Source of the DNA: Thermodesulfobacteriota bacterium
Lineage (GTDB): Bacteria; Desulfobacterota; WTBG01; CAIYCZ01; CAIRTM01
NCBI GenBank assembly: GCA_028282925.1
Contig: JANQGV010000032.1
Coordinates: 1-62,839 of the forward strand
Direction: 5' to 3'
DNA: 62,839 bases
Shown here: positions 3,361 to 62,636 of the stretch, piece by piece
Layout of the letters: the number at the start of each line of letters is the position of its first letter
Numbering within the stretch: the stretch's first letter is position 1
Position numbers and translations under genes: made by a program
Notes under the pieces: model-generated
Database searches by the model: none
What the model was told of the DNA's origin: nothing
Seen by the model: the letters and a program-made list of their open reading frames with translations, nothing else

Positions 3361-3756
3361 GGTAGTATTCCTTCCTACATCCAGATTGTTTTTGTATTTT
3401 CATCGGTGCTGGGTGCCCGGAAAATACATTAAATATTCTAAGTAAATATAAATTTTTACTATAAACAATTATACTCTGGAATGTCAACATAAAAGATGAT
3501 CTGAGCTGCCCTCGTGACCCGCCTGCAGAAAAGCTGGAAAACGATGTTTTTAAAGTCATTTACACGTATTATTCCCGCACACTGAAGGATTCGATCCAGA
3601 CGTGTGGGCATCACCTGCCTAAGAGCCTTCGGTATTGACAGAATTCCTGCACTTGCTACAATGCTTACCTTTGGAAAGCTCTTCAATATAATCACTTAGT
3701 ACGTTGCAGACTGTTGAAAAATGCCTAGGTGTTTGTCGGAAAACCTACTCAATGGG
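3361..3756. other. Intergenic region: EF-G promoter side, no convincing gene
   Basis: About 350 AT-rich bases upstream of the EF-G gene carry no gene I can support. Fragments of PAL1 ends occur at about 3708-3745 (CAGACTGTTGAAAAATGC and TTTGTCGGAAAACC), just before the complete copy. Short open frames here lack ribosome sites and start codons. Confidence 0.5.
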
Positions 3757-3876
3757 GGCTGTTGGAGAATGTTCAGACACAAGGCGCGCGATATCCTTTG
3801 GAATGAGGCGTACTTGTCTGTACGTCGCAGTGAAAAAGGTGAGCGCAACGCAGGAGATGGACGTTCTCCGACAGCC
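3757..3876 (+). repeat. PAL1 element, complete copy
   Basis: A 120-bp imperfect hairpin starts GGCTGTTGGAGAATG and ends CGTTCTCCGACAGCC. The central arms GAGGCGTAC and GTACGTCGC flank a short loop. It is followed immediately by a second, left-truncated copy. This is the only PAL1 pair that points toward the start of a gene (radA) and not toward the 3' end of one. Confidence 0.85.
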
Positions 3877-3877
3877 T

Positions 3878-3985
3878 CCTAGATACAAGGCATGTTGTGT
3901 TGCGAGGAGTGAGGCGTATGTGGTTATACGTCGCAGCGACGAGCAATCCGCATAACGCAGCAGATGGGCATTTTCCGGCAGTCTC
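3878..3985 (+). repeat. PAL1 element, left-truncated tandem copy
   Basis: This copy lacks the first 15 or so bases of PAL1, starting at AGATACAAGGC, but keeps the central GAGGCGTA loop arms and the right arm AACGCAGCAGATGGGC ending TTTTCCGGCAGTCTC. It ends 23 bases before the radA start codon, so the radA leader is largely repeat DNA. Confidence 0.8.
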
Positions 3986-15454: not shown

Positions 15455-15455
15455 A

Positions 15456-15490
15456 GACTGGTGGAGAATGTTCAGATACAAGGCGCGCAA
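15456..15490 (+). repeat. PAL1 left-half fragment
   Basis: GACTGGTGGAGAATGTTCAG followed by ATACAAGGCGCGC matches the left arm of PAL1 and then diverges. A PAL2 end fragment (AGTCACAAATCAAGCAAG) follows at about 15503-15522, and a complete PAL1 begins at 15551. This is a small repeat cluster behind the DUF1329 gene. Confidence 0.7.
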
Positions 15491-15550
15491 AAATTTTTCA
15501 TCTAGTCACAAATCAAGCAAGAAAAACCAATCAATTACAAAAACGGTTTA

Positions 15551-15671
15551 GGCCGATGGAAAATGTTCAGATACAAGGCGTGCGAACCCCTGAGGCATGA
15601 GGCGTACGTGTTTGTACGCCGCAATGTCGCAGGGTGAGCACAACGCAGAAGATGGGCGTTTTCCACCGGCC
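15551..15671 (+). repeat. PAL1 element, complete copy overlapping a stop codon
   Basis: A 121-bp hairpin with arms GGCCGATGGAAAATG and CGTTTTCCACCGGCC and central GAGGCGTACGTGTTTGTACGCCGC. Its last base is the first base (plus strand) of CTA, the TAG stop codon of the minus-strand DUF1329 gene. The arm tips differ from other copies but match each other. Confidence 0.88.
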
Positions 15672-16951
15672 TAATAGGCGGCACGCTGGAGGTTACCAAG
15701 GGTAAACATACTCGGCCTCAGCTCAATCCCGATACCTTTCACCGTTTGCCGTGTGCAGGCGGCGTATTTGCGCTGGTAATCAATCACATGACAACCGACC
15801 AGAAAACTTTTATCTTCACCGGTGGCGGTTTTCAGGTTCTGCGTAAACTGTTCGATAAATTTCCAGAACTGCCCGTTCTTATCATAGATTTGCGTACAGA
15901 GGATATGGTAGGTTTCCGGATCCACATACCAGATACGCTTGCTGTAAATATAGTCGGGGTCTTTACTGACTACTTCCACGGCAAAGGTGTTTACCCGCTC
16001 ACGGGTGAGATTATTATAGATAAGCTGGCCCTGCTGCCGCTCCAGGGTATCAAGATCGATATGCCGGGCACCCAGGTACTCCTTACGGCCGAGGTAGTTG
16101 TAGATATTGCGGGTGATCTGCCCGTTCCAACAGAACTCATCATCGTAAATAACGATGGAACCGTCAACAGAATCCGTGCGGTGCGAACCCGAAAGCCTTG
16201 TCAGGCGGCGGGTCTGGGCATTATACATATAGTTGTCGTCTTCTTTGTTGAAATCCAGAAACCGGATATTAAACCGCCGGGTGTTCAAAAACTCGTTCGG
16301 TTTATACATATGATAAAAACCGGCCCAGTGGATCTGCTTCTTATTCTTCGGCAAACGGGGCTTGGGTTCGGCATCAACCCGGTGGGCAAAATAGAGCTCC
16401 CAGCAGTCGGCATCCTGTATGCGTTCTTCAAAATGATTTAAATCAACATTGGGTGTATACCGGCGGTAGTGGGATGAATCGCCGCGGGTATTCATATCAT
16501 AGTTCCAGGCGATTTCCTGGCCGGTTTGAGGGTCAGGGAAAGGCATTCCGGCAATATCTTTGTAATTTTCAATAATACCCTGATCATCAACGCGCACCTG
16601 TGGTGCATAGGCACGGGTTGCCTCTATCATGCCTTTTGTTTCAACAATGGGCGCATACGGGACTATCGTAAAGTAAAGCCCAGTATCAGCAGGCGCACCG
16701 CATTTCCGGGGGTTGTTGTACACAAACTGCAGGCATTCGGGCAGGTATTCGGCGACCTGGCTGAGGTTTGCTGAAGTTATCTTCTGTCCGACCCATTGTT
16801 GCTCCCAGCTTCGAACCGTTGCAAGCTCTGCCTCGCTGTAAGCTTTGAGGGGAAATGTTTTTTCCAGGGCATGGCCCTCTGCTGCAATCCACATTACCGC
16901 CGTCAGTACCAGTGCCGGAAAGATTTTTGTTGCTCCACATACTGATCTCAT
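15671..16951 (-). CDS. DUF1329 family exported protein
   Basis: The 426-residue protein has an N-terminal signal peptide (SVCGATKIFPALVLTAVMWIAAEGHA) and matches the DUF1329 pattern (PF07044): ILCTQIYDKNGQFWKF near the C-terminus, an RRFNIRFLDFNKEDDNYMY-type segment, and DPDYIYSKRIWYVDPETYHI. Family members are outer-membrane/periplasmic beta-rich proteins, often near RND exporters and lipid metabolism genes, with unknown molecular role. I chose the ATG at 16951 because GGAGG is 8 bases upstream; seven more in-frame residues exist. The TAG stop overlaps the end of a PAL1 hairpin, which probably forms the mRNA 3' end. Confidence 0.85.
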   Translation of the reverse strand: MRSVCGATKIFPALVLTAVMWIAAEGHALEKTFPLKAYSEAELATVRSWEQQWVGQKITSANLSQVAEYLPECLQFVYNNPRKCGAPADTGLYFTIVPYAPIVETKGMIEATRAYAPQVRVDDQGIIENYKDIAGMPFPDPQTGQEIAWNYDMNTRGDSSHYRRYTPNVDLNHFEERIQDADCWELYFAHRVDAEPKPRLPKNKKQIHWAGFYHMYKPNEFLNTRRFNIRFLDFNKEDDNYMYNAQTRRLTRLSGSHRTDSVDGSIVIYDDEFCWNGQITRNIYNYLGRKEYLGARHIDLDTLERQQGQLIYNNLTRERVNTFAVEVVSKDPDYIYSKRIWYVDPETYHILCTQIYDKNGQFWKFIEQFTQNLKTATGEDKSFLVGCHVIDYQRKYAACTRQTVKGIGIELRPSMFTLGNLQRAAY

Positions 16952-17338: not shown

Positions 17339-17635
17339 GCTGTTGGAGAATGCTCAGATACAAGGCGCACGACACCATGAGGAGCGAGGCGTCCAGTCTC
17401 AAATCAGGTGGACATTCGTCGCGAGGCTGCCGGAATGCCTGGAGATAGCGGCTGCACGGACCGGAATCCGAAGAATCGTACTTTTCTGTACGTTGATGAG
17501 GATGGAGGAAGTACAGCCGGTAGATTCGGGGATTCCGACAGCCGTAGTAGAATGCTTCACCTGGTTTGAGACTGGATGTACGTCGCAGTGACGCATGGTG
17601 AGTGCAACGCAGTAGATGGGCGTTCTCCGACAGCC
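17339..17635 (+). repeat. PAL1 element interrupted by a PAL2 element
   Basis: The left PAL1 half runs from GGCTGTTGGAGAATG to GAGGCGT (17339-17392) and the right half from TGTACGTCGC to CCGACAGCC (17576-17635). The bases normally forming the loop are replaced by a 183-bp PAL2 element. No clear target duplication is seen; the loop bases between the halves appear to be lost. Confidence 0.85.
17393..17575. repeat. PAL2 element, complete copy nested in PAL1
   Basis: A 183-bp hairpin-type repeat with terminal inverted repeats CCAGTCTCAAATCAGGTG and CACCTGGTTTGAGACTGG. Its interior (GAAGAATCGTAC, GTACGTTGATGAGG, GATTCGGGGATTCCG) matches the copy at 41680-41855. No open reading frame of useful size is inside, so if mobile it is non-autonomous. 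Confidence 0.85.
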
Positions 17636-17643
17636 TGCCCTGT

Positions 17644-17745: not shown

Positions 17746-19242
17746 TTATTGATCCGGTGAATACCTCCACCAGATATCGCCGTCTTGCTGAATGCCGGCT
17801 ATATCGGCCCGGCCGTCGTTATTGAAATCTCCGCTGATTATTGTCAGATAGGTACCCTGCACCTGGTTCCATGTTTCAAAATCAACGGAATAATACAAAC
17901 CGCCGTTCATATCAAGGCCTGCCAGATCGTCCTTATTGTCGCCGTTGATATCTGCACTGATAAGCATTTCAAACTGCTTTTCATCAAGCTGCTCCCAGGT
18001 TTCGCCCAGGTCAAGGGTGTACCAGATATCACCGTCCTCCTGAAGCCCGGCTACATCGTCACGGCCGTCGCCGTTAAAGTCTCCGCTGACAACGGTCAGC
18101 AGCCTGCCGGGAAGGAGCGACCAGTTGTTTTTATCAGTGCTGTAATAAATTTCATAATAGTCCGACCAGCCGTCGTTCTGCAGCGCAATAATATCAGAGG
18201 CAGCATCACCGTTTACATCACCGCTTGCAAGCACTTCAAAGCGCTCTTCGGCCAGCCGGTTCCAGGTATCGCCGCTGTCGTTTGTATACCACACATCGCC
18301 GTCGGTCTGGGTTCCGGCTATATCGTCGAGACCGTCGCCGTTGAAGTCGCTGCTGGCAACCGACACGAGGCGGCCCGGCACGGCCATCCAGTTGCCCAGC
18401 TCGACACTGTAGTAGATTTCATGATAGTCGGACCAGCCGTCGTTTTTAAGGGCCACGATTTCATCCTTTTCATCACCATCCAGATCGCCGGCAACAAGTG
18501 CTTCGAACGCCCCGGGCATCATGGTTTTATCCGTAAGGTTTGTCGAATAGGCTATTGAACCGTTATCTTCAATGCCTGCAATATCATCCCGGCCGTCGCC
18601 GTCGAAATCGCCGCTGATAATATCCTGGAAATTACCGCTGATTTCACCGCTTACCGGCACCGTTGTCGTTGTGGTTGTGGGGCCGGGGTAGAGGTACTTG
18701 ATGCCGTTGATGTCGTCTGTGTGCAGATGCTGGGCGCCGTGATAGGAAGCATACATGACCGATTTTCGGTTGCCGCTGTGCCCCAGTCCAAGGGTATGAC
18801 CCAGCTCGTGCAGCGCAACCGTGCGCAGATCATACCGCCCCGATTTGGTGGCAGTTCGCCAACTGTATTTTTTGTTGAATCGAATATCGGAATCGGTGGT
18901 TTGACGTTTGGAGTTGTACCACCAGTAACAGTATCCCAAGTAGCTGCCGGAAATGCTGCCGAAATCAATGATGTTCTTGCCGTCGCGTTTGCCGAATGCG
19001 TGGCTGTTGGTCTTGCCGCCGTATATAAATTCGAATCGAGAACCATTCACGTTGCTCCACTCGATCATGGCTTCCTGTATGGCGCTCAGACTGCCGCTGG
19101 GACTTCCGCCGGTGTTGATATATTCGGTTGCCCTGGCATTTTTCCATTTGCAGCCCGTCCTGCTGTATGCCTCAGCAGCACAAGGTACCAGTGCAACGAT
19201 AAAAAGTATGATAAAAATGCGGTACACAAAAAGCCGTATCAT
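17746..19242 (-). CDS. Secreted matrixin-like zinc metalloprotease with VCBS/FG-GAP repeats
   Basis: The 498-residue exported protein has a signal peptide (residues 1-25), a metzincin catalytic domain with zinc motif HELGHTLGLGH (145-155) and Met-turn SVMY (161-164), a short threonine linker (189-194), then seven VCBS/FG-GAP repeats built on SGDFDGDGRDDIAG-type calcium-binding loops (about 205-498). Seven such repeats suggest a beta-propeller that may bind surface polymers. The start overlaps the stop of the upstream exported gene by 4 bp (ATGA), implying translational coupling. It is probably an extracellular protease; the substrate is unknown. Confidence 0.9.
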   Translation of the reverse strand: MIRLFVYRIFIILFIVALVPCAAEAYSRTGCKWKNARATEYINTGGSPSGSLSAIQEAMIEWSNVNGSRFEFIYGGKTNSHAFGKRDGKNIIDFGSISGSYLGYCYWWYNSKRQTTDSDIRFNKKYSWRTATKSGRYDLRTVALHELGHTLGLGHSGNRKSVMYASYHGAQHLHTDDINGIKYLYPGPTTTTTTVPVSGEISGNFQDIISGDFDGDGRDDIAGIEDNGSIAYSTNLTDKTMMPGAFEALVAGDLDGDEKDEIVALKNDGWSDYHEIYYSVELGNWMAVPGRLVSVASSDFNGDGLDDIAGTQTDGDVWYTNDSGDTWNRLAEERFEVLASGDVNGDAASDIIALQNDGWSDYYEIYYSTDKNNWSLLPGRLLTVVSGDFNGDGRDDVAGLQEDGDIWYTLDLGETWEQLDEKQFEMLISADINGDNKDDLAGLDMNGGLYYSVDFETWNQVQGTYLTIISGDFNNDGRADIAGIQQDGDIWWRYSPDQ

Positions 19243-25804: not shown

Positions 25805-25834
25805 AATTGCTTCACCTGAGACATCATTTAGAAC

Positions 25835-25916
25835 GTAGGGTGGGTGCAGCATCGCGGAACCCACCGATTATTTTTAACCTGTTATGTTGGGTTACACTGC
25901 GTTTTCCCCACCCTAC
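25835..25916. repeat. 82-bp palindromic repeat (GTAGGGTGGG family), copy 1
   Basis: An 82-bp imperfect inverted repeat starts GTAGGGTGGGTGCAGC and ends CCCCACCCTAC, with inner arms GGAACCCACC/TGGGTT. It matches the copy at 26616-26697 in length and layout. It lies between the 3' end of the AT-rich membrane gene and the 5' end of the persulfide dioxygenase gene. Confidence 0.85.
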
Positions 25917-26457: not shown

Positions 26458-26615
26458 TCACCATGTAATGTAAAAGATTTCATTATCCTGAGATTAAATA
26501 AAGCTGGAATTCCTGCCCCGTTATTCTGTTCATACGCCTATACCTACCACTACATAAACGTATTATCAAGTGAATGTTTTACCAATAAAAAAGTTGGGAA
26601 CTTCTATAATAATTC

Positions 26616-26697
26616 GTAGGGTGGATGCAGCAACGCGGAACCCACCATTAATTTTCAACTCGTTATGGTGGGTTGCACTTCGTTTCACCCACCCTAC
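26616..26697. repeat. 82-bp palindromic repeat (GTAGGGTGGG family), copy 2
   Basis: Same family as 25835-25916: starts GTAGGGTGGATGCAGC and ends CACCCACCCTAC, also 82 bp. Differences from copy 1 are scattered. It is upstream of the AT-rich membrane gene and directly followed by a PAL1 right-half fragment. Confidence 0.85.
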
Positions 26698-41349: not shown

Positions 41350-41437
41350 GGCTGAAGGAAAATATCCGAATACAAGGCGCACGGGGCGTGAGGAGTGCTG
41401 AAAGCAACGCAGTTTTGACCCTGCCGGTCTAAAACCT
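41350..41437 (+). repeat. PAL1 degenerate copy with GC-rich leader motif
   Basis: GGCTGAAGGAAAATATCCGA and ATACAAGGCGCACGG match the left arm; the right arm is decayed (AAAGCAACGCAG). The CTACAAACCATTA stretch directly before it is shared with the 48543 copy. It is one of several stacked decayed copies between the EamA and PilZ genes. Confidence 0.6.
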
Positions 41438-41438
41438 T

Positions 41439-41535
41439 GGAGGGTGGCGGAAAATGTCCAGATGGTAGGCGCGCTTAGTTCTGTGGAGTGAGGCGTATTT
41501 TGTTGTACTTTTAAGAAAAGCTTTTCCAGCGGCCC
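41439..41535 (+). repeat. PAL1 degenerate copy
   Basis: GGAGGGTGGCGGAAAATGTC and GGAGTGAGGCGTATTTTGTT match the left arm and loop; the right arm is shortened to CTTTTCCAGCGGCCC. A PAL2 end fragment follows immediately. Confidence 0.6.
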
Positions 41536-41675: not shown

Positions 41676-41679
41676 AATA

Positions 41680-41855
41680 GCCTCAAATCAAACGATCATT
41701 CGTAGCGAGGATGCTGCAATGTCTGGAGATGAGGATTGCACGGACTGGAAGCCGAAGAATCGTACTTGACAGTACGCTGATGAGGCTGCAGGGAGTACAA
41801 TCCGCAGATTCGGGCATTGCGGCAGCCGCAGTAGAATGTTTCGTTTGTTTTGAGG
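41680..41855. repeat. PAL2 element, complete copy abutting PilZ stop codon
   Basis: A 176-bp element with termini GCCTCAAATCAAACGATC and CGTTTGTTTTGAGGC. The interior (GAAGAATCGTAC, GTACGCTGATGAGG, GATTCGGGCATTGCGG) matches 17393-17575. Arm tips read CAAACGA here but CAGGTG in the other copy, and each matches its own partner arm. The right end directly precedes CTA, the TAG stop of the minus-strand PilZ gene. Confidence 0.85.
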
Positions 41856-42215
41856 CTATATGATGGAGCGTTCTTTTATTTCGGCCTTATGCTTATCCAC
41901 AAACGCCTTGATAATATCCTTGTGCTCCTTGCTGAGATCCAGAAACTGGATGCCCATGCCAGGGGGGAAGATATTGTCGCCGGCCTTGGGATTGATCCAT
42001 ACCACACGTCCGATAATGTTCATGGCTTCGGAGGTCTCGGGCAGGGTTACCAGCAGATTCACCTTAGCTTCAAGGGGCAGGGGCTGGGTGGTCTTGATAA
42101 ACAGGCCGCCGTTGCTCACATTCAGCATGTACGACCTGGTGAACGAGCCCTTTTCCTTGAACTGTATTTCTATATTCGTATCGATGCGTTCATCTTCACG
42201 ACGTTCTGAACCCAT
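41856..42215 (-). CDS. PilZ domain protein, TIGR02266-like
   Basis: The 119-residue protein is a stand-alone PilZ-type domain: the arginine-rich start RREDERIDTN, YMLNVSNGGLFIKTTQPLP near residue 30 and a VVWINPKAGDNIFPPGMGIQF segment near 70. This fits the paralogous TIGR02266 group known from myxobacteria and other deltaproteobacteria. PilZ proteins bind cyclic di-GMP, but this variant lacks a perfect RxxxR-(D/N)xSxxG set, so ligand binding is uncertain. GGAAGGAAAGGG precedes the ATG. The TAG stop abuts a PAL2 hairpin. Confidence 0.88.
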   Translation of the reverse strand: MGSERREDERIDTNIEIQFKEKGSFTRSYMLNVSNGGLFIKTTQPLPLEAKVNLLVTLPETSEAMNIIGRVVWINPKAGDNIFPPGMGIQFLDLSKEHKDIIKAFVDKHKAEIKERSII

Positions 42216-45856: not shown

Positions 45857-45920
45857 GGTCATATCCTCTCTGTCTTTATCTCGACACGCTCCGTCCCGGA
45901 CTTTACCTCTCAGAATAATC

Positions 45921-45951
45921 GGTGGGTTTCGCTGTGCTACACCAACCCTAC
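45921..45951. repeat. 82-bp repeat family, right-half fragment
   Basis: GGTGGGTTTCGCTGTGCTAC and ACCAACCCTAC match the right arm of the GTAGGGTGGG repeat at 25835 and 26616. The left half is missing. A PAL1 copy begins 30 bases further on. Confidence 0.7.
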
Positions 45952-45980
45952 GCGGGCTGCACATTTTACTACCAGCCTTA

Positions 45981-46085
45981 CAGTCTGACCAGAAACGTTT
46001 AGATGACTCGATATTAAAAAAAACATCGTACGCCGTAGCGACGAACGGCACGCACAACGCAGCAGATGAGCGTTTATCATCAGAC
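45981..46085 (+). repeat. PAL1 element overlapping a stop codon
   Basis: A 105-bp copy with tips CAGTCTGACCAGAAACG and CGTTTATCATCAGACTG and inner CGTACGCCGTAGCGACGAAC. The final TCA of its right arm is the TGA stop of the minus-strand C39 peptidase gene. The tip sequence is unlike other copies but self-complementary within this one. Confidence 0.8.
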
Positions 46086-47081
46086 TGGTATCAATATGTA
46101 GGCTACGCCTGTTCTATCAAGCCAAACCGTACTGAATTCACGCACATCATACGCCCTTGCAACGGCGCTATCAACCTCACCTGCCGGGTCGTTCACCAGT
46201 ATTTCATTTCCTCTATATCCCCGCACCACAACAAGATGACCGTAGCTTCTCTCCATGGCGGCATTCGTCAACTCGCCCTCTTTATACCGTATGGAAGCAA
46301 TCAGGGGCACATCGCGGTCAAGCAGGGCCCGCACCTCCCCGATATCCCGGAATACATGCACATACCCCAGGGTATTGCAACGGGAAGCGGCCCAGATGTT
46401 TGCCGGCCACACCCCGTATAAATCGGTGTCTTTATGATAGGCCAGATCCGCCATGGCCAAGGGGTCGGTGATTCGGCCGTAATAGTCAAGCACCATGGAA
46501 AGGCCGGTGGGCGAGCAGATCCGTTCCCTGATCTGCTGGTCGAACACCATCTGGCTTTTGGGGGGCACGGCAATCTCATGGGACTTTTCCACATCAGGCA
46601 GGTCTGCAGGGGCATGTACGTCCTGTGCGGTTACGGATATACCTAAAAACAGCGGGGCGGCAAGGGCCGCCTCGATATCAGGAGCATGCACCTCACACAA
46701 AATCTCGGCCATACCTTCAAGGGCATCTACAAGAAAGTAGTCGATGTCGGCCCGTACCCCGTGGGCGGCATTACCGGGAGGCTCCTTCAGACCGGGCCAT
46801 GCGCCGATACCCGGCAGATTCAATTCATAAGTAATTTCAGAATATTGTGGCGATATCCTCATGGAAAACCTGTAACCGTACTGCTGCTGCGAATCAATGG
46901 CAAGGGTAGGAATCAGGCGGCACCCGGCAAGATCCAGCCGGGCCGCGGACAATCGGATTTCAGCGGTCCGGGGCCCGGTTATGTTGATATCCACTGCCCT
47001 ATCAGACAGCATGGCCGCATCAGAGGGCAGCCAGCGGGCAATAGAGCTTTGCGAACGGTTTTTCAGGTATATATGCAGCAT
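46080..47081 (-). CDS. C39-like papain-fold cysteine peptidase domain protein
   Basis: The 333-residue protein has an N-terminal beta-rich region (residues 1-165) and a C39_2-like domain with the catalytic cysteine C189 in ERICSPTGLSMVL, GHLVVVRGY (histidine near 283) and VNDPAGEVDS (aspartate near 300). The spacing is that of the C39 family; many members are peptidases for leader sequences or peptidoglycan-related substrates. No signal peptide is seen and no transporter is adjacent. Substrate is unknown. Its stop codon overlaps the end of a PAL1 element. Confidence 0.82.
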   Translation of the reverse strand: MLHIYLKNRSQSSIARWLPSDAAMLSDRAVDINITGPRTAEIRLSAARLDLAGCRLIPTLAIDSQQQYGYRFSMRISPQYSEITYELNLPGIGAWPGLKEPPGNAAHGVRADIDYFLVDALEGMAEILCEVHAPDIEAALAAPLFLGISVTAQDVHAPADLPDVEKSHEIAVPPKSQMVFDQQIRERICSPTGLSMVLDYYGRITDPLAMADLAYHKDTDLYGVWPANIWAASRCNTLGYVHVFRDIGEVRALLDRDVPLIASIRYKEGELTNAAMERSYGHLVVVRGYRGNEILVNDPAGEVDSAVARAYDVREFSTVWLDRTGVAYILIPV

Positions 47082-48542: not shown

Positions 48543-48658
48543 GGGCTGAGGGAAAATGTTCAGATACAAGGCGCGTGAGGAGTGAGGCGTACTTTTTTGT
48601 ACGTCGCAACGACGAACGACTCACACAACGCTGTAGATGGGCGTTTTCCGACAGTCTC
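48543..48658 (+). repeat. PAL1 element, complete copy next to pepD stop
   Basis: A 116-bp hairpin with arms GGCTGAGGGAAAATG and CGTTTTCCGACAGTC and loop GAGGCGTACTTTTTTGTACG. The right end is directly followed by CTA, the TAG stop of the minus-strand pepD gene. A degenerate copy of the GC-rich motif and the shared CTACAAACCATTA stretch lie to its left. Confidence 0.88.
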
Positions 48659-50119
48659 CTAATATTTGCCTGCCGCAATAGCCCCCAGGACCCCGCAAAG
48701 CAACTCCCAAAACCTCCCCACACTTTCAATCTTTACCGCCTCATCCGGGGAATGGCAGTTTATAATATCGGCCCCGAAGGATATCATGTCCATTCCCGGC
48801 AGCAAATCTCCGATGATGCCGCACTCGAGGCCCGCATGGGTAGCCTCCCGTTCGGGCGAAAACCCGAACAGCTCTTCATGTACGCTCTCAACCAGGTGTA
48901 AAACCCGTGAATCGGGGTTCGGCTGCCACCCGGGGTACGGCTTTTCAATCTCGTTTTGCGCCCCGGCAAGCTCGGCTACAGCCACAATCTGCTCCACGGT
49001 CGCCTGCAGTGCCGCGGCCACAGAGGAGCGCGGGCTGTTGTGCACGGTGAGATAATCCCCCTCCATGCGCACGGAGGCCACATTGTTGGAGGTTTCAACC
49101 AGTCCGTCTATGGTGCGGCTCATGGACATGACCCCGTTGGGAAACGCCAGCAGCATATCGATTACGGCATCGCGGCTGGTTGAGGTGAAAACCCGGGCCG
49201 GTTTTTCCACCGGACTGCATTGCAGGGCAAAGTCTGCATCATCCGGGTATTCGGAACCAATGTCTGCCGTAAACCCTTTTATTATTTCCTGCACCTTCTC
49301 TTCAGTGCCGGACGGCAGACAGACAACCGCCGTGGCTTCCCGGGGTATGGCATTATGTTTGTCACCCCCCCGTATTTCCGCAATATCAAGCCCGAAGTGA
49401 GAAAGTGCCCTCAGCAGGCGCGACACTATTTTAACGGCATTGCCACGGTTTTCATTGATATTCAGTCCAGAATGCCCGCCCTGGAGCCCGCTCACCGTCA
49501 GCATATACCCGGCACAGTCGGCAGGCGTGCTGCTGAATGCAAGCTGCATCGAGCTGTCGACGCCACCTCCCCCGGCGCAGCCCATACACAACGATCCGGT
49601 ATGTTCTGAATCAAGGTTGAGTAAAATACGGCCCGAAACCAGATGCGGGTCCAGCCCGAAAACACCGGTCAGCCCGGTTTCCTCGTCCACCGTCAGCAGC
49701 AACTCAAGCGGCCCGCGATTCAGGGAATCGTCCCAGGCCGCAGCCAGGGCCGCGGCAAGCCCGATGCCGTTGTCGGCCCCCAGGGTCGTACCATCGGCCC
49801 TGAGCCATTCACCGTTCCGCACCAGGCGGATTCCCTCTTTTCCAAAATCAAACTCAACATCGTCGTTTTTTTCGCACACCATATCCAGATGGGCCTGCAG
49901 CACGGTAACAGGCGCATTTTCAAAGCCCGGGGTTGCCGGAACCCTGATGCAGAGGTTGCCGGTTGGGTCTTTTTTTACCTCAAAACCCTTATCCCGGGCC
50001 GTTTTACGCAGGTATGCGGCCAGGGCGGCCTCGTTTTTTGAGCCCCTAGGAAAACGGGACACATTAGCAAACATTGACCAGAGCAGCCCGGGTTCCAACC
50101 CTTCAATTGCAGCCGTCAT
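48659..50119 (-). CDS. pepD: Aminoacyl-histidine dipeptidase (PepD/M20C)
   Basis: The 486-residue M20 metallopeptidase hydrolyses X-His and other dipeptides in the cytoplasm. Zinc-site residues are in QAHLDMVCEKN near residue 82, ADGTTLGADNGIG near 115, VDEETGLTGVFGLD near 150 and a C-terminal RATHAGLECGIIGD-type motif near 420. The protein is of normal length. The site AAAGGAAC precedes the ATG. The gene is monocistronic and divergent from mlaA. Its TAG stop abuts PAL1, the likely 3'-UTR hairpin of this transcript. Confidence 0.93.
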   Translation of the reverse strand: MTAAIEGLEPGLLWSMFANVSRFPRGSKNEAALAAYLRKTARDKGFEVKKDPTGNLCIRVPATPGFENAPVTVLQAHLDMVCEKNDDVEFDFGKEGIRLVRNGEWLRADGTTLGADNGIGLAAALAAAWDDSLNRGPLELLLTVDEETGLTGVFGLDPHLVSGRILLNLDSEHTGSLCMGCAGGGGVDSSMQLAFSSTPADCAGYMLTVSGLQGGHSGLNINENRGNAVKIVSRLLRALSHFGLDIAEIRGGDKHNAIPREATAVVCLPSGTEEKVQEIIKGFTADIGSEYPDDADFALQCSPVEKPARVFTSTSRDAVIDMLLAFPNGVMSMSRTIDGLVETSNNVASVRMEGDYLTVHNSPRSSVAAALQATVEQIVAVAELAGAQNEIEKPYPGWQPNPDSRVLHLVESVHEELFGFSPEREATHAGLECGIIGDLLPGMDMISFGADIINCHSPDEAVKIESVGRFWELLCGVLGAIAAGKY

Positions 50120-59086: not shown

Positions 59087-60157
59087 TCAGCCTTCCACAA
59101 GAGGCAGATCAATGCGAACCGTGGTCCCCTCTCCCACCGTACTCGTAATCGACATCGCGCCGCCGTGCATGATGGCAATGTGTTTTACCCGGGTAAGGCC
59201 CATACCGGCTCCGGACATCTTGGAGGTGTAAAAGGGGCGTACCACATTTTTCAGTTCGTTCTTGGGAATACCACGGCCCGTGTCGGTAAAATCAACCGTT
59301 GCCCTGTGGTCCTGCCGGGCAATCTCCATCAGCAGGCTGCCGCCCGGCTCCATGGCTTCAATGGCATTTTCAATAACATGTGAGAAGGCCACTTCAAGGT
59401 TTTGCCGATCGCCGCGCACAATCAGGTCTTCGCCGGCAAACTGCTCCCTGATTGTGATCATCTTCTGTTCCAGGGCCGGTCCGAAGTGCTCGACAGCGGA
59501 GCGGGCCGCTTTCATAAGGTCGACCTTCTCATTCAGGGATATTACCAGGCTCTTCATTGAAATAATTTCCCTGAGCATTGTTTCAAGGCGTTCGGCTTCG
59601 TGGGTGATATGCTGGGCATAGGTCCGGATGCGGTCTCCGGGAGGCAGGCTGTCGCGGATGCGGCGGGCAAAGCCTCCGATGGCAACAATGGGGTTGCGCA
59701 CTTCGTGTGCAACCCCGTCAAGCATCTTTTCTAAGGCATCAAGAGTGCCCTCTTCCTCCACTTTGTCGCGGTATTTGCGCCGCTCAACCATGCCCTTGAT
59801 GCGGGCCACAAATTCCTTGGCTTCGAACGGCTTGGTAATGTAGTCGTCGGCCCCGCTTTCGAGGCCGTTGACTTTGTCTTCTACATAATCCTTGGAAGTC
59901 AGGAGCACAACCGGAATGAGCCGGGTCTCTTCTTTTTCTTTCAGGCGCCGGCACACTTCCAGCCCGTCCATCTTGGGCATCATCACATCGCTTACAACCA
60001 GGTCGGGTAACTCCTGCAGGGCTTTTTCAAGCCCCTCCTCACCGTCACCGGCCGTTATCACGTCGTAGCCGATGTTGGTCAAAAGTTTTTTGGTAATGGT
60101 GACAATTTCAATCGTGTCGTCCACCACCAGTATTTTAACGTTGTCGGCCAAAGCCAC
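59087..60157 (-). CDS. Response regulator-histidine kinase fusion
   Basis: The 356-residue cytoplasmic protein starts with a receiver domain (phosphoacceptor D57 in DLVVSDVMMPKMDG, K109), followed by a kinase with H151 in GVAHEVRNPIVAIG and a HATPase domain (IENAIEAM, DTGRGIPKNE, GAGMGLTRVKHIAIMHGG). The receiver-first layout with no membrane or sensor domain suggests it is phosphorylated by or integrates signals from another kinase. It is 77 bp from the ferredoxin gene and probably last in the DUF169-ferredoxin-kinase operon. The start codon is GTG or TTG; GTG at 60157 is listed. A PAL1 hairpin follows its stop. Confidence 0.9.
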   Translation of the reverse strand: MALADNVKILVVDDTIEIVTITKKLLTNIGYDVITAGDGEEGLEKALQELPDLVVSDVMMPKMDGLEVCRRLKEKEETRLIPVVLLTSKDYVEDKVNGLESGADDYITKPFEAKEFVARIKGMVERRKYRDKVEEEGTLDALEKMLDGVAHEVRNPIVAIGGFARRIRDSLPPGDRIRTYAQHITHEAERLETMLREIISMKSLVISLNEKVDLMKAARSAVEHFGPALEQKMITIREQFAGEDLIVRGDRQNLEVAFSHVIENAIEAMEPGGSLLMEIARQDHRATVDFTDTGRGIPKNELKNVVRPFYTSKMSGAGMGLTRVKHIAIMHGGAMSITSTVGEGTTVRIDLPLVEG

Positions 60158-61137: not shown

Positions 61138-61652
61138 ATGTCCCTCCACTGTTTATGTTCAGATACTGTATTTCAGCCCTACACATTGTTGTGTTTATTC
61201 TTTCACCACCCGCTGCATATAACTCGCCTTTGGGAACAATGCTGGATTAATATGTTGTTTGTAGGCGCCTCTCCGTGCCTGCCATGCCGTAGCTTTACGC
61301 GAAGGATGGGGCGCCCGTTTTTTAACCATGTTTGCGGGCGGGCACAGAGACCCGCCCCGGTAACACAATCAACCACCCACCCAGGAGAGTGATGAAAAAT
61401 GTTCAGATACAAAGCGTCAAAAAACCCACGGGCAGATTGTTCATACTTCAGACCTCGCAGGCTGATAAGAAACGCTTAGATGCAAGGCGTGGGACTCATC
61501 CATCCTCAATAAACCAAAAACCCAGGAGAGTGATGGAAATTATTCAGATACAAGGCGTCGCGCATCCCCGAGGAATGAGGCGTACTCGGTTGTACGCCGC
61601 AGTGACGAGGGGTGCGAGCAACGTAGTAGATGGATGGTTTCCACCACTCTCG
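61138..61652. other. Repeat-rich region between two DUF169 genes
   Basis: No gene is present. It holds a GC-rich motif pair (GCGCCTCTCCGTGCCTGCC near 61260 and GGCGGGCACAGAGACCCGCC at 61336), PAL1 left-end fragments at about 61382-61412 and 61459-61490, and a complete PAL1 at 61525-61651. Tips of the last two are different from each other. It appears to have been built by repeated insertion behind the DUF169-PCP_red gene. Confidence 0.7.
61525..61651 (+). repeat. PAL1 element, complete copy near DUF169 stop
   Basis: A 127-bp copy with tips GGAGAGTGATGGAAATT and GGTTTCCACCACTCTC and central GAGGCGTACTCGGTTGTACG. It ends one base before the TAA stop of the minus-strand DUF169-PCP_red gene. The tip GAGAGTG/CACTCTC is unique to this cluster. 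Confidence 0.85.
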
Positions 61653-62636
61653 TTAAAGAGACTCGAGCATTTCGTCGATACTTGTCCCCATCAGCGCCAT
61701 CTGCTCATCCATCGACTTCTTGGTCACCATCTCGTAGCCCTTTTCCTTGGCAAAGTCTTCCGAGTTGGTAACAACCATCTCGATAATACCCTCGGGCACC
61801 TTCTTCAGAAGGCTCCGGGCTTCTTCGTCCCACGGCATGCTGAACGTTATTTCATCGGTTGAGGTTTCCTCTACCTCTTCCGGCTCCACCGTACCGGCTG
61901 CTTTGTCTTCCATCTTCTTCCAGAAAGGTGAGTGGGCCGGTTTGGTCATGGTACGCGAGGTTTTCACATCGACTTTTACATTTTCAAGGGTTGCAGGCAG
62001 GAAGTCGACAAACTGCATGGGTATAACTATAAACATCTGGTCGGACTTGATCTTGTTGTGCATGCGGCCGCCCTGGTCGCCCGAGGTAATAATGATGTCC
62101 TGCAAATGCCACGGCTGGGCAAATATCTCACCGCACAGCGAACTGCCGAACGAGCAGAAAGGTCTGATGCCTTCCTGGGCCAGACGGCAGGTGCCGATGA
62201 AATTTGCGTGCTGTACGTTGGCAACACAGATGATCCAGTCTACCGCAACCCCTTCAGGCACTTCGTCAAGGGGGGCGGCCCCGATGGCCTTCACCATGCC
62301 GGTGGGCAGCACCGGGGTGCCTGCTTTCAGGCGCGCGGCAGCATCATAGGTGAAAAAACTGGATGTTTTCGAGAGGTACTCACCTGAAACTATCTCCCGC
62401 TTGCCGGGCAGGATACCTGCATGGTGCACGCCCACCAGGCAATCCTGATGGTCGGCATCGAAATAGACCTTTTTGCCCTCATCCATGGCAATGCGCACGA
62501 TGGCACAGGGCGGTTCAGCGCCAATGGGCTCGTAGCCTTCTGGAATCGTTTCCCTGAAGAGGCTTAAACCTACCGGCTTTCCCCGTACTTTACCCCGCTT
62601 GATCAAAAGTTCTGCAATTGTTTTTAAATCTTTCAT
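61653..62636 (-). CDS. DUF169 protein with PCP_red-like C-terminal domain
   Basis: The 327-residue protein has a DUF169 domain (CAIVRIAMDEGKKVYFD near residue 45, CLVGVHHAGILPG, ICVANVQHANFIGTCRLAQE, CSFGSSLCGEIFA near 165) and a C-terminal segment (about 275-320, MPWDEEARSLLKKVPEGIIEMV...FAKEKGYEMVTKKSMDE). That segment resembles the PCP_red domain at the end of the light-independent protochlorophyllide reductase B subunit, where it is a small domain of unclear role. No chlorophyll gene is present. GGGG precedes the ATG at 62636. A PAL1 hairpin abuts its stop. Confidence 0.78.
   Translation of the reverse strand: MKDLKTIAELLIKRGKVRGKPVGLSLFRETIPEGYEPIGAEPPCAIVRIAMDEGKKVYFDADHQDCLVGVHHAGILPGKREIVSGEYLSKTSSFFTYDAAARLKAGTPVLPTGMVKAIGAAPLDEVPEGVAVDWIICVANVQHANFIGTCRLAQEGIRPFCSFGSSLCGEIFAQPWHLQDIIITSGDQGGRMHNKIKSDQMFIVIPMQFVDFLPATLENVKVDVKTSRTMTKPAHSPFWKKMEDKAAGTVEPEEVEETSTDEITFSMPWDEEARSLLKKVPEGIIEMVVTNSEDFAKEKGYEMVTKKSMDEQMALMGTSIDEMLESL

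Follow-up and report, generated by a model that had tools for sequence, protein, structure and literature searches.

MITEs derived from IS5-family insertion sequences are a known kind of element, being short, non-coding, and dispersed in many copies, with ends that match an IS5-type element of the same genome and with a duplication of the sequence YTAR, a documented IS5 duplication motif (PMC10359306). The repeat family described here, from a draft genome of a Thermodesulfobacteriota bacterium (GenBank assembly GCA_028282925.1), resembles these MITEs in all of the above properties, whereas its near-absolute replichore polarity and a hairpin conserved far better than its left terminal repeat are unusual.

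Several other described systems are similar in part. Chunjie from Geobacter uraniireducens (as cited in PMC10969869) is likewise a multi-copy MITE of related bacteria found at gene ends and in intergenic DNA, but, compared by description, it has a length of 235 bp versus about 150 nt here. The multicopy sequences of Geobacter metallireducens, another former deltaproteobacterium, are also intergenic and in some cases palindromic, and one class is said to resemble multicopy sequences of many genomes; by their description, however, they are tandem short repeats with a proposed IHF/HU binding function (PMC2700814). The ERIC sequences of enterobacteria are imperfect palindromes of about 127 nt, lie in intergenic DNA, and are treated as MITEs (PMC10969869). 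They belong to other organisms, and this comparison, too, is by description. IS200/IS605 and REP/RAYT elements are mobilized through a single-strand HUH mechanism and are not known to duplicate their target. The direction of IS200/IS605 elements follows replication (PMC5371812), as in the present family, whose ends and duplication nevertheless point to a DDE transposase. An orientation bias of transposable elements relative to replication has been associated with the sliding clamp (Gomez et al. 2014, as cited in PMC5371812); as far as that citation describes it, the difference is that the bias is near-absolute in one genome here.

The window, by which we mean the whole analyzed stretch of 62,839 nucleotides, is contig C161 (JANQGV010000032.1) of a 5.6-Mb draft genome in 324 contigs, with a MAG contamination of about 3%. 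A profile built from 42 full-length copies yields 13 window matches with E below 1e-5, each of them in the plus direction, which bears out the initial annotation, made from the sequence alone, in its claim that more than ten copies of a hairpin run in one direction. The weak partial copies it had placed at 41350, 61382, and 61459 are recovered, also on the plus strand, at E values of 0.001 to 0.003. In total, about 15 copies or fragments are found, all in the plus direction. Rfam gave no match at gathering score in the window, and none at E <= 1 around the copy at 48543 to 48658. The features are listed below, with genes called by a simple hexamer caller made for this analysis.

3708..3728, plus strand, older interrupted copy, left part; joined with 3883-3984 it gives a full-length match of 91.6 bits
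3725..3728, no strand, target duplication CTAG, left copy, 4 bp
3729..3878, plus strand, complete MITE, 121 bits to the profile; left terminal repeat from 3729 (15/17), hairpin 3756-3878, flanked by CTAG
3879..3882, no strand, target duplication CTAG, right copy, 4 bp
3883..3984, plus strand, older interrupted copy, right part, from profile match and join
15455..15492, plus strand, partial copy, left arm, 27 bits
15550..15672, plus strand, full hairpin copy at the stop of minus-strand gene 15671-16894, 116 bits
17337..17394, plus strand, split copy, left arm, 43 bits; split by a second palindromic repeat at 17395-17572
17573..17636, plus strand, split copy, right arm, 53 bits
26710..26765, plus strand, partial copy, right arm, 28 bits
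41349..41397, plus strand, weak partial copy, left arm, 14 bits, E 0.001
41442..41508, plus strand, partial copy, left arm, 36 bits
41585..41655, plus strand, partial copy, left arm, 38 bits
46026..46085, plus strand, partial copy, right arm, at the stop of minus-strand gene 46080-47081, 38 bits
48544..48657, plus strand, full hairpin copy under study, 1 nt from the stop of minus-strand dipeptidase gene 48659-50119, 105 bits
58958..59080, plus strand, full hairpin copy, 6 nt from the stop of minus-strand gene 59087-60157, 90 bits
61388..61417, plus strand, weak partial copy, left arm, 13 bits, E 0.003
61459..61495, plus strand, weak partial copy, left arm, 13 bits, E 0.0025
61528..61650, plus strand, full hairpin copy, 2 nt from the stop of minus-strand gene 61653-62636, 101 bits

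The repeat is probably a non-autonomous MITE of about 150 nt without coding capacity, mobilized by an IS5-family (NCBIfam IS5_4) transposase at YTAR targets, with an orientation that tracks replication. It has terminal inverted repeats of about 17 bp and a 4-bp YTAR target duplication, and its layout in relatives is YTAR-CAGGSTGTTGAAAAAGTCCTTTTATAC-[hairpin]-TTTTTCAACAGCCTG-YTAR. The repeat family recognized initially is real; its hairpin part measures 124 nt, and the relatives show that the true element reaches about 28 nt further to the left.

Within the window, the ends of the element are fixed directly by a nested insertion, where the copy at 3729 to 3878, with CTAG on both sides, sits within an older copy. 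Excising it rebuilds this older copy at full length with the score listed above, whereas shifted joins reach at most 85.6 bits; what had been read as a pair of copies by radA, starting at 3757 and 3878, is one copy inserted inside another. More generally, the left and right flanking 4-mers are identical in 20 of 47 copies, versus 5.3 expected (permutation maximum of 12). For copies from named genomes the count is 12 of 25, versus 2.1 expected, and the two sets overlap in one organism. Together with the CTAG of the nested copy, these counts give the family the 4-bp YTAR duplication of an IS5-derived MITE, and it is also short, multi-copy, and devoid of a transposase gene.

Other repeats occur near or inside the copies. 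A palindromic repeat of about 180 nt, with the ends AGTCCCAAATnAAG / CTTnATTTGGGACT, lies at 17395-17578 and 41679-41862 of the window. It entered the copy at 17339 near the hairpin apex as a 178-nt insert (17394/17573) and also splits MITE copies in loci L039, L078, and L079. A third insert of about 110 to 120 nt (TGGCAACATACAACCGCGTAGCGGTT...) is found in split copies of L039, L051, L056, L058, and L088, always near hairpin position 41-52, and this constant place suggests site-specific insertion. An 83-nt palindromic repeat (CGTAGGGTGGGTGCAGC...ACCCACCCTACG) occurs in both orientations at 25834-25916, 26615-26697, and 45914-45952, and internal repeats of about 260 nt lie at 17769-18627, within the sequence coding for a metalloprotease-like protein (17746-19242, minus strand).

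The search for DUF772 transposases in the window genome found one insertion sequence of 1342 bp with CTAG on both sides (L195:1250-2591, G000:C197). Its left end agrees with the left end of the relatives' MITE consensus in 17 of 17 positions and its right end with the right end in 17 of 17, including the AAAAAGT/AAAAACG difference between the two, while the left terminal repeat of the window copy has diverged. The product of 357 aa scores 263 bits against NCBIfam IS5_4, and from the matching ends we infer that this transposase may mobilize the MITE. Counting against the partnership, the insertion sequence is present in a single copy in the window genome, and most relatives with the MITE yielded no close homolog; homologs in two other genomes share 51 to 58% identity, with a similar CAGGCTG(T/C)TGAAAAAC end at two of three loci. 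The insertion sequence stops 16 nt before the start codon of the downstream gene, as do many MITE right ends. IS701-type transposases also prefer YTAR, and an IS701-type DDE_5 transposase was considered as the partner and rejected, with no match in five genomes.

The window genome itself holds evidence against the MITE reading, since 46 of its 61 full copies have neither a recognizable left terminal repeat nor a duplication. The left leaders without a clear repeat are still slightly repeat-like (34% versus 26%), and a scan of many offsets in this genome gave no signal for a hairpin-only class with its own duplication. Copies without duplication could also belong to a REP-like or IS200/IS605-type element that a Y1 transposase moves as single-stranded DNA; a lagging-strand polarity would then arise with no duplication of the target. 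Such elements follow the direction of replication (PMC5371812), and 11 Y1_Tnp matches are present in the genome. We regard this origin as very unlikely, as 4-bp duplications are clear in the relatives and in the nested window copy, the ends are shared with an IS5 element, and the faint resemblance of the leaders to the terminal repeat also speaks against it. Linkage to a Y1 gene is not seen either, with one of six Y1 loci examined having a nearby copy, about what copy density predicts. The eleven matches to Y1 (HUH) transposases lie at 11 places of the genome (G000), not linked to the MITE.

The profile search, which the initial annotation had proposed for the whole genome, was run on a 1.16-Mb sample and gave 99 matches, compared with none in a reversed-sequence decoy of 1.16 Mb. 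A density of 82 matches per Mb, fragments included, extrapolates to about 460 in the genome. Matches are carried by 25 of the 39 genomes searched, the window's own included, and are missing from 14. Among the matches listed, the named carriers are mostly Desulfobacterota/Deltaproteobacteria MAGs (Syntrophales, Desulfobacterales, and Desulfobulbaceae), besides two Nitrospirae MAGs, one Thermodesulfovibrio MAG, and the isolate Desulfosarcina cetonica JCM 12296. At the sensitivity used, no MITE copy was found in plasmids, phages, or viral contigs.

Copy orientation tracks replication, not the neighboring genes, as a correlation. In the 21 sampled contigs with at least two copies, 1 of 84 copies points in the minority direction, versus 26 expected, and among the best 150 whole-genome matches the minority is 0 of 70 copies in 28 contigs, versus 18 expected. 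The element strand has negative GC skew in 69 of 71 copies; where the plus-strand skew is negative, 57 copies are on the plus strand, and where it is positive, 34 are on the minus strand, with 2 exceptions. Gene bias correlates with skew (rho of 0.41), which is consistent with negative skew marking the lagging strand; the names leading and lagging are thus assigned by GC skew, with ori and ter unplaced in the window genome. The two possible determinants can be separated in regions where gene strand and skew are discordant, and there 20 of 20 copies follow the skew. This tabulation of orientation against gene strand and replichore had been set beforehand as the refuting test; it refutes the initial proposal that the adjacent gene strand sets the orientation and upholds the leading/lagging strand bias, which had been named as the alternative.

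The polarity is much weaker in other genomes than in the window genome, which counts against the present reading. Genome G008 shows the same direction in 23 of 33 copies, with 2 minority copies of 29 within contigs versus 7.8 expected. Over many genomes, 81 of 121 copies have this direction (p=2e-4), and the intercept at zero gene bias is -0.016 +- 0.004. In the closed chromosome CP070774 the direction changes mainly once, with mostly plus copies from 0.54 to 1.41 Mb and minus copies from 1.42 to 1.78 Mb, although the copies are few and there are two weak exceptions.

Why copies adjoin gene 3' ends can be explained by the target. YTAR contains TAA/TAG on both strands, making stop codons targets, so copies abut gene 3' ends; the stop codons of genes would be ready and harmless sites for insertion. 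The share of full copies located at a stop codon is 14/35 in the window genome, 9/26 in G008, and 5/20 in other genomes, compared with a background of 6 to 9% at a stop for the available non-coding YTAR sites (6.6% for the 14/35). The earlier idea of an insertion targeted to transcript ends is supported to this extent, the target including stop codons. In the case of the dipeptidase beside the copy at 48544 to 48657, the C-terminus is full length, so that the original stop itself was likely the insertion target; stop codons supplied by the element, or truncated genes, were rejected for this gene. An apparent rule that only the right end meets genes was also dismissed, being largely an artifact of a left end set about 28 nt too far to the right.

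Most of the abutted genes are minus-strand genes, as would largely be predicted from replication polarity and a leading-strand gene bias, and for the nearest genes the strands show no significant departure from the local background (p=0.09 and 0.19). The initial statement that no copy lies behind a plus-strand gene needs qualification, as the copies at 41442, 48544, and 58958 are found between convergent genes, those at 48544 and 58958 being nearer to the minus-strand stop. The position at stop codons and the strong RNA fold of the element strand could also be read as a 3'-UTR hairpin, a terminator or mRNA stabilizer retained for its orientation to the upstream gene. This explanation is highly improbable. 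Orientation goes with skew and not with genes, the strand with the better fold lies antisense to the majority of abutting genes, and co-directional pairs in G008 run the opposite way (14 L+R+ versus 7 L-R-). The T counts after the hairpin equal the background on both strands, leaving neither strand with the T-run of an intrinsic terminator and giving no support to the proposed termination function, and the Rfam search described above gave no match.

The hairpin shows strong covariation. In the alignment, 94% of cells pair, with 119 double-changed cells versus 29 in shuffles. In 38 of 39 copies the element strand forms a better fold than its complement (mean of -57 versus -40 kcal/mol as RNA, and also as single-stranded DNA) because of conserved G-U/G-T pairs. 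The left leader of the window genome is nearly random, with 0.18 bits per column, versus 1.2 to 1.4 at the hairpin ends, whereas G008 has 0.89 in the leader and 1.6 at the hairpin ends. Uniform neutral decay does not give this contrast of a decayed leader and a conserved hairpin. A covarying hairpin that outlasts the left terminal repeat, together with the polarity, hints that the hairpin is under selection or that one of the two orientations is lost.

As to how replication sets the polarity, hairpin loss is the mechanism we favor. The strand folding best would be the nascent lagging strand and the leading-strand template, with the weaker fold facing the lagging-strand gap. Copies with the stronger hairpin on the lagging-strand template might be lost, since hairpins there would be exposed and deleted, and such preferential loss of the opposite orientation would yield the observed direction. 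Supporting loss, the fold asymmetry is largest in the window genome, which is also the genome with the most decayed ends. The polarity rises from 16 of 26 copies on the rule strand among those with exact duplications, to 36 of 49 among the other full copies, to the 69 of 71 of the genome with the most decayed ends, an uncontrolled trend across sets whose first step is not significant (young versus other copies, p=0.30). An insertion bias through contact of the transposase with the sliding clamp may add to this loss, and the hairpin may also be kept by selection in the window genome.

The main rival is a fork insertion bias without later filtering, where the transposase touches the beta sliding clamp and inserts in one orientation; we consider it possible, though clearly the less likely course. 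A QDSLF sequence lies near the N-terminus of the partner transposase, with QATML or QEAMF at the corresponding position of homologs; these resemble the clamp-binding motif QLxLF, but this motif is almost always located at the transposase C-terminus (PMC4549789). Several insertion sequence families bind the clamp and show an orientation bias (PMC5371812), and within contigs the copies of G008, many of which have kept their duplications, already agree in direction. However, the 16 of 26 copies with exact duplications on the rule strand are fewer than such a bias would lead one to expect, and it does not account for a hairpin that is more conserved than the terminal repeat.

Alternatively, the hairpin could have been recruited for a chromosome-scale, direction-dependent task, such as replication restart or a segregation or recombination signal in the manner of KOPS/Chi, with selection keeping both shape and polarity. 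The window genome provides the near-absolute polarity, the strong compensatory covariation, and the hairpin kept while the terminal repeat decays, and its strong replichore skew is a property shared with KOPS/Chi-like signals. But many window copies are fragments, the spread is patchy, with the 14 genomes without matches, no binding protein is known, and gene conversion between copies could likewise keep the hairpins alike. We think it improbable that an IS5-type MITE was domesticated in a Desulfobacterota lineage, with hundreds of hairpins of selected shape and polarity forming a chromosome-wide signal for replication, repair, or segregation.

Some transposable elements are known to have an orientation biased by the direction of replication; the present DDE-type MITE stands at the extreme, as hardly any of the copies checked are reversed. 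The YTAR target makes stop codons landing sites, so that such an element can mimic a 3'-UTR regulatory element. The MITE family is a convenient system in which to tell apart a bias at insertion, instability of the hairpin on the lagging-strand template, and selection favoring a polar function.
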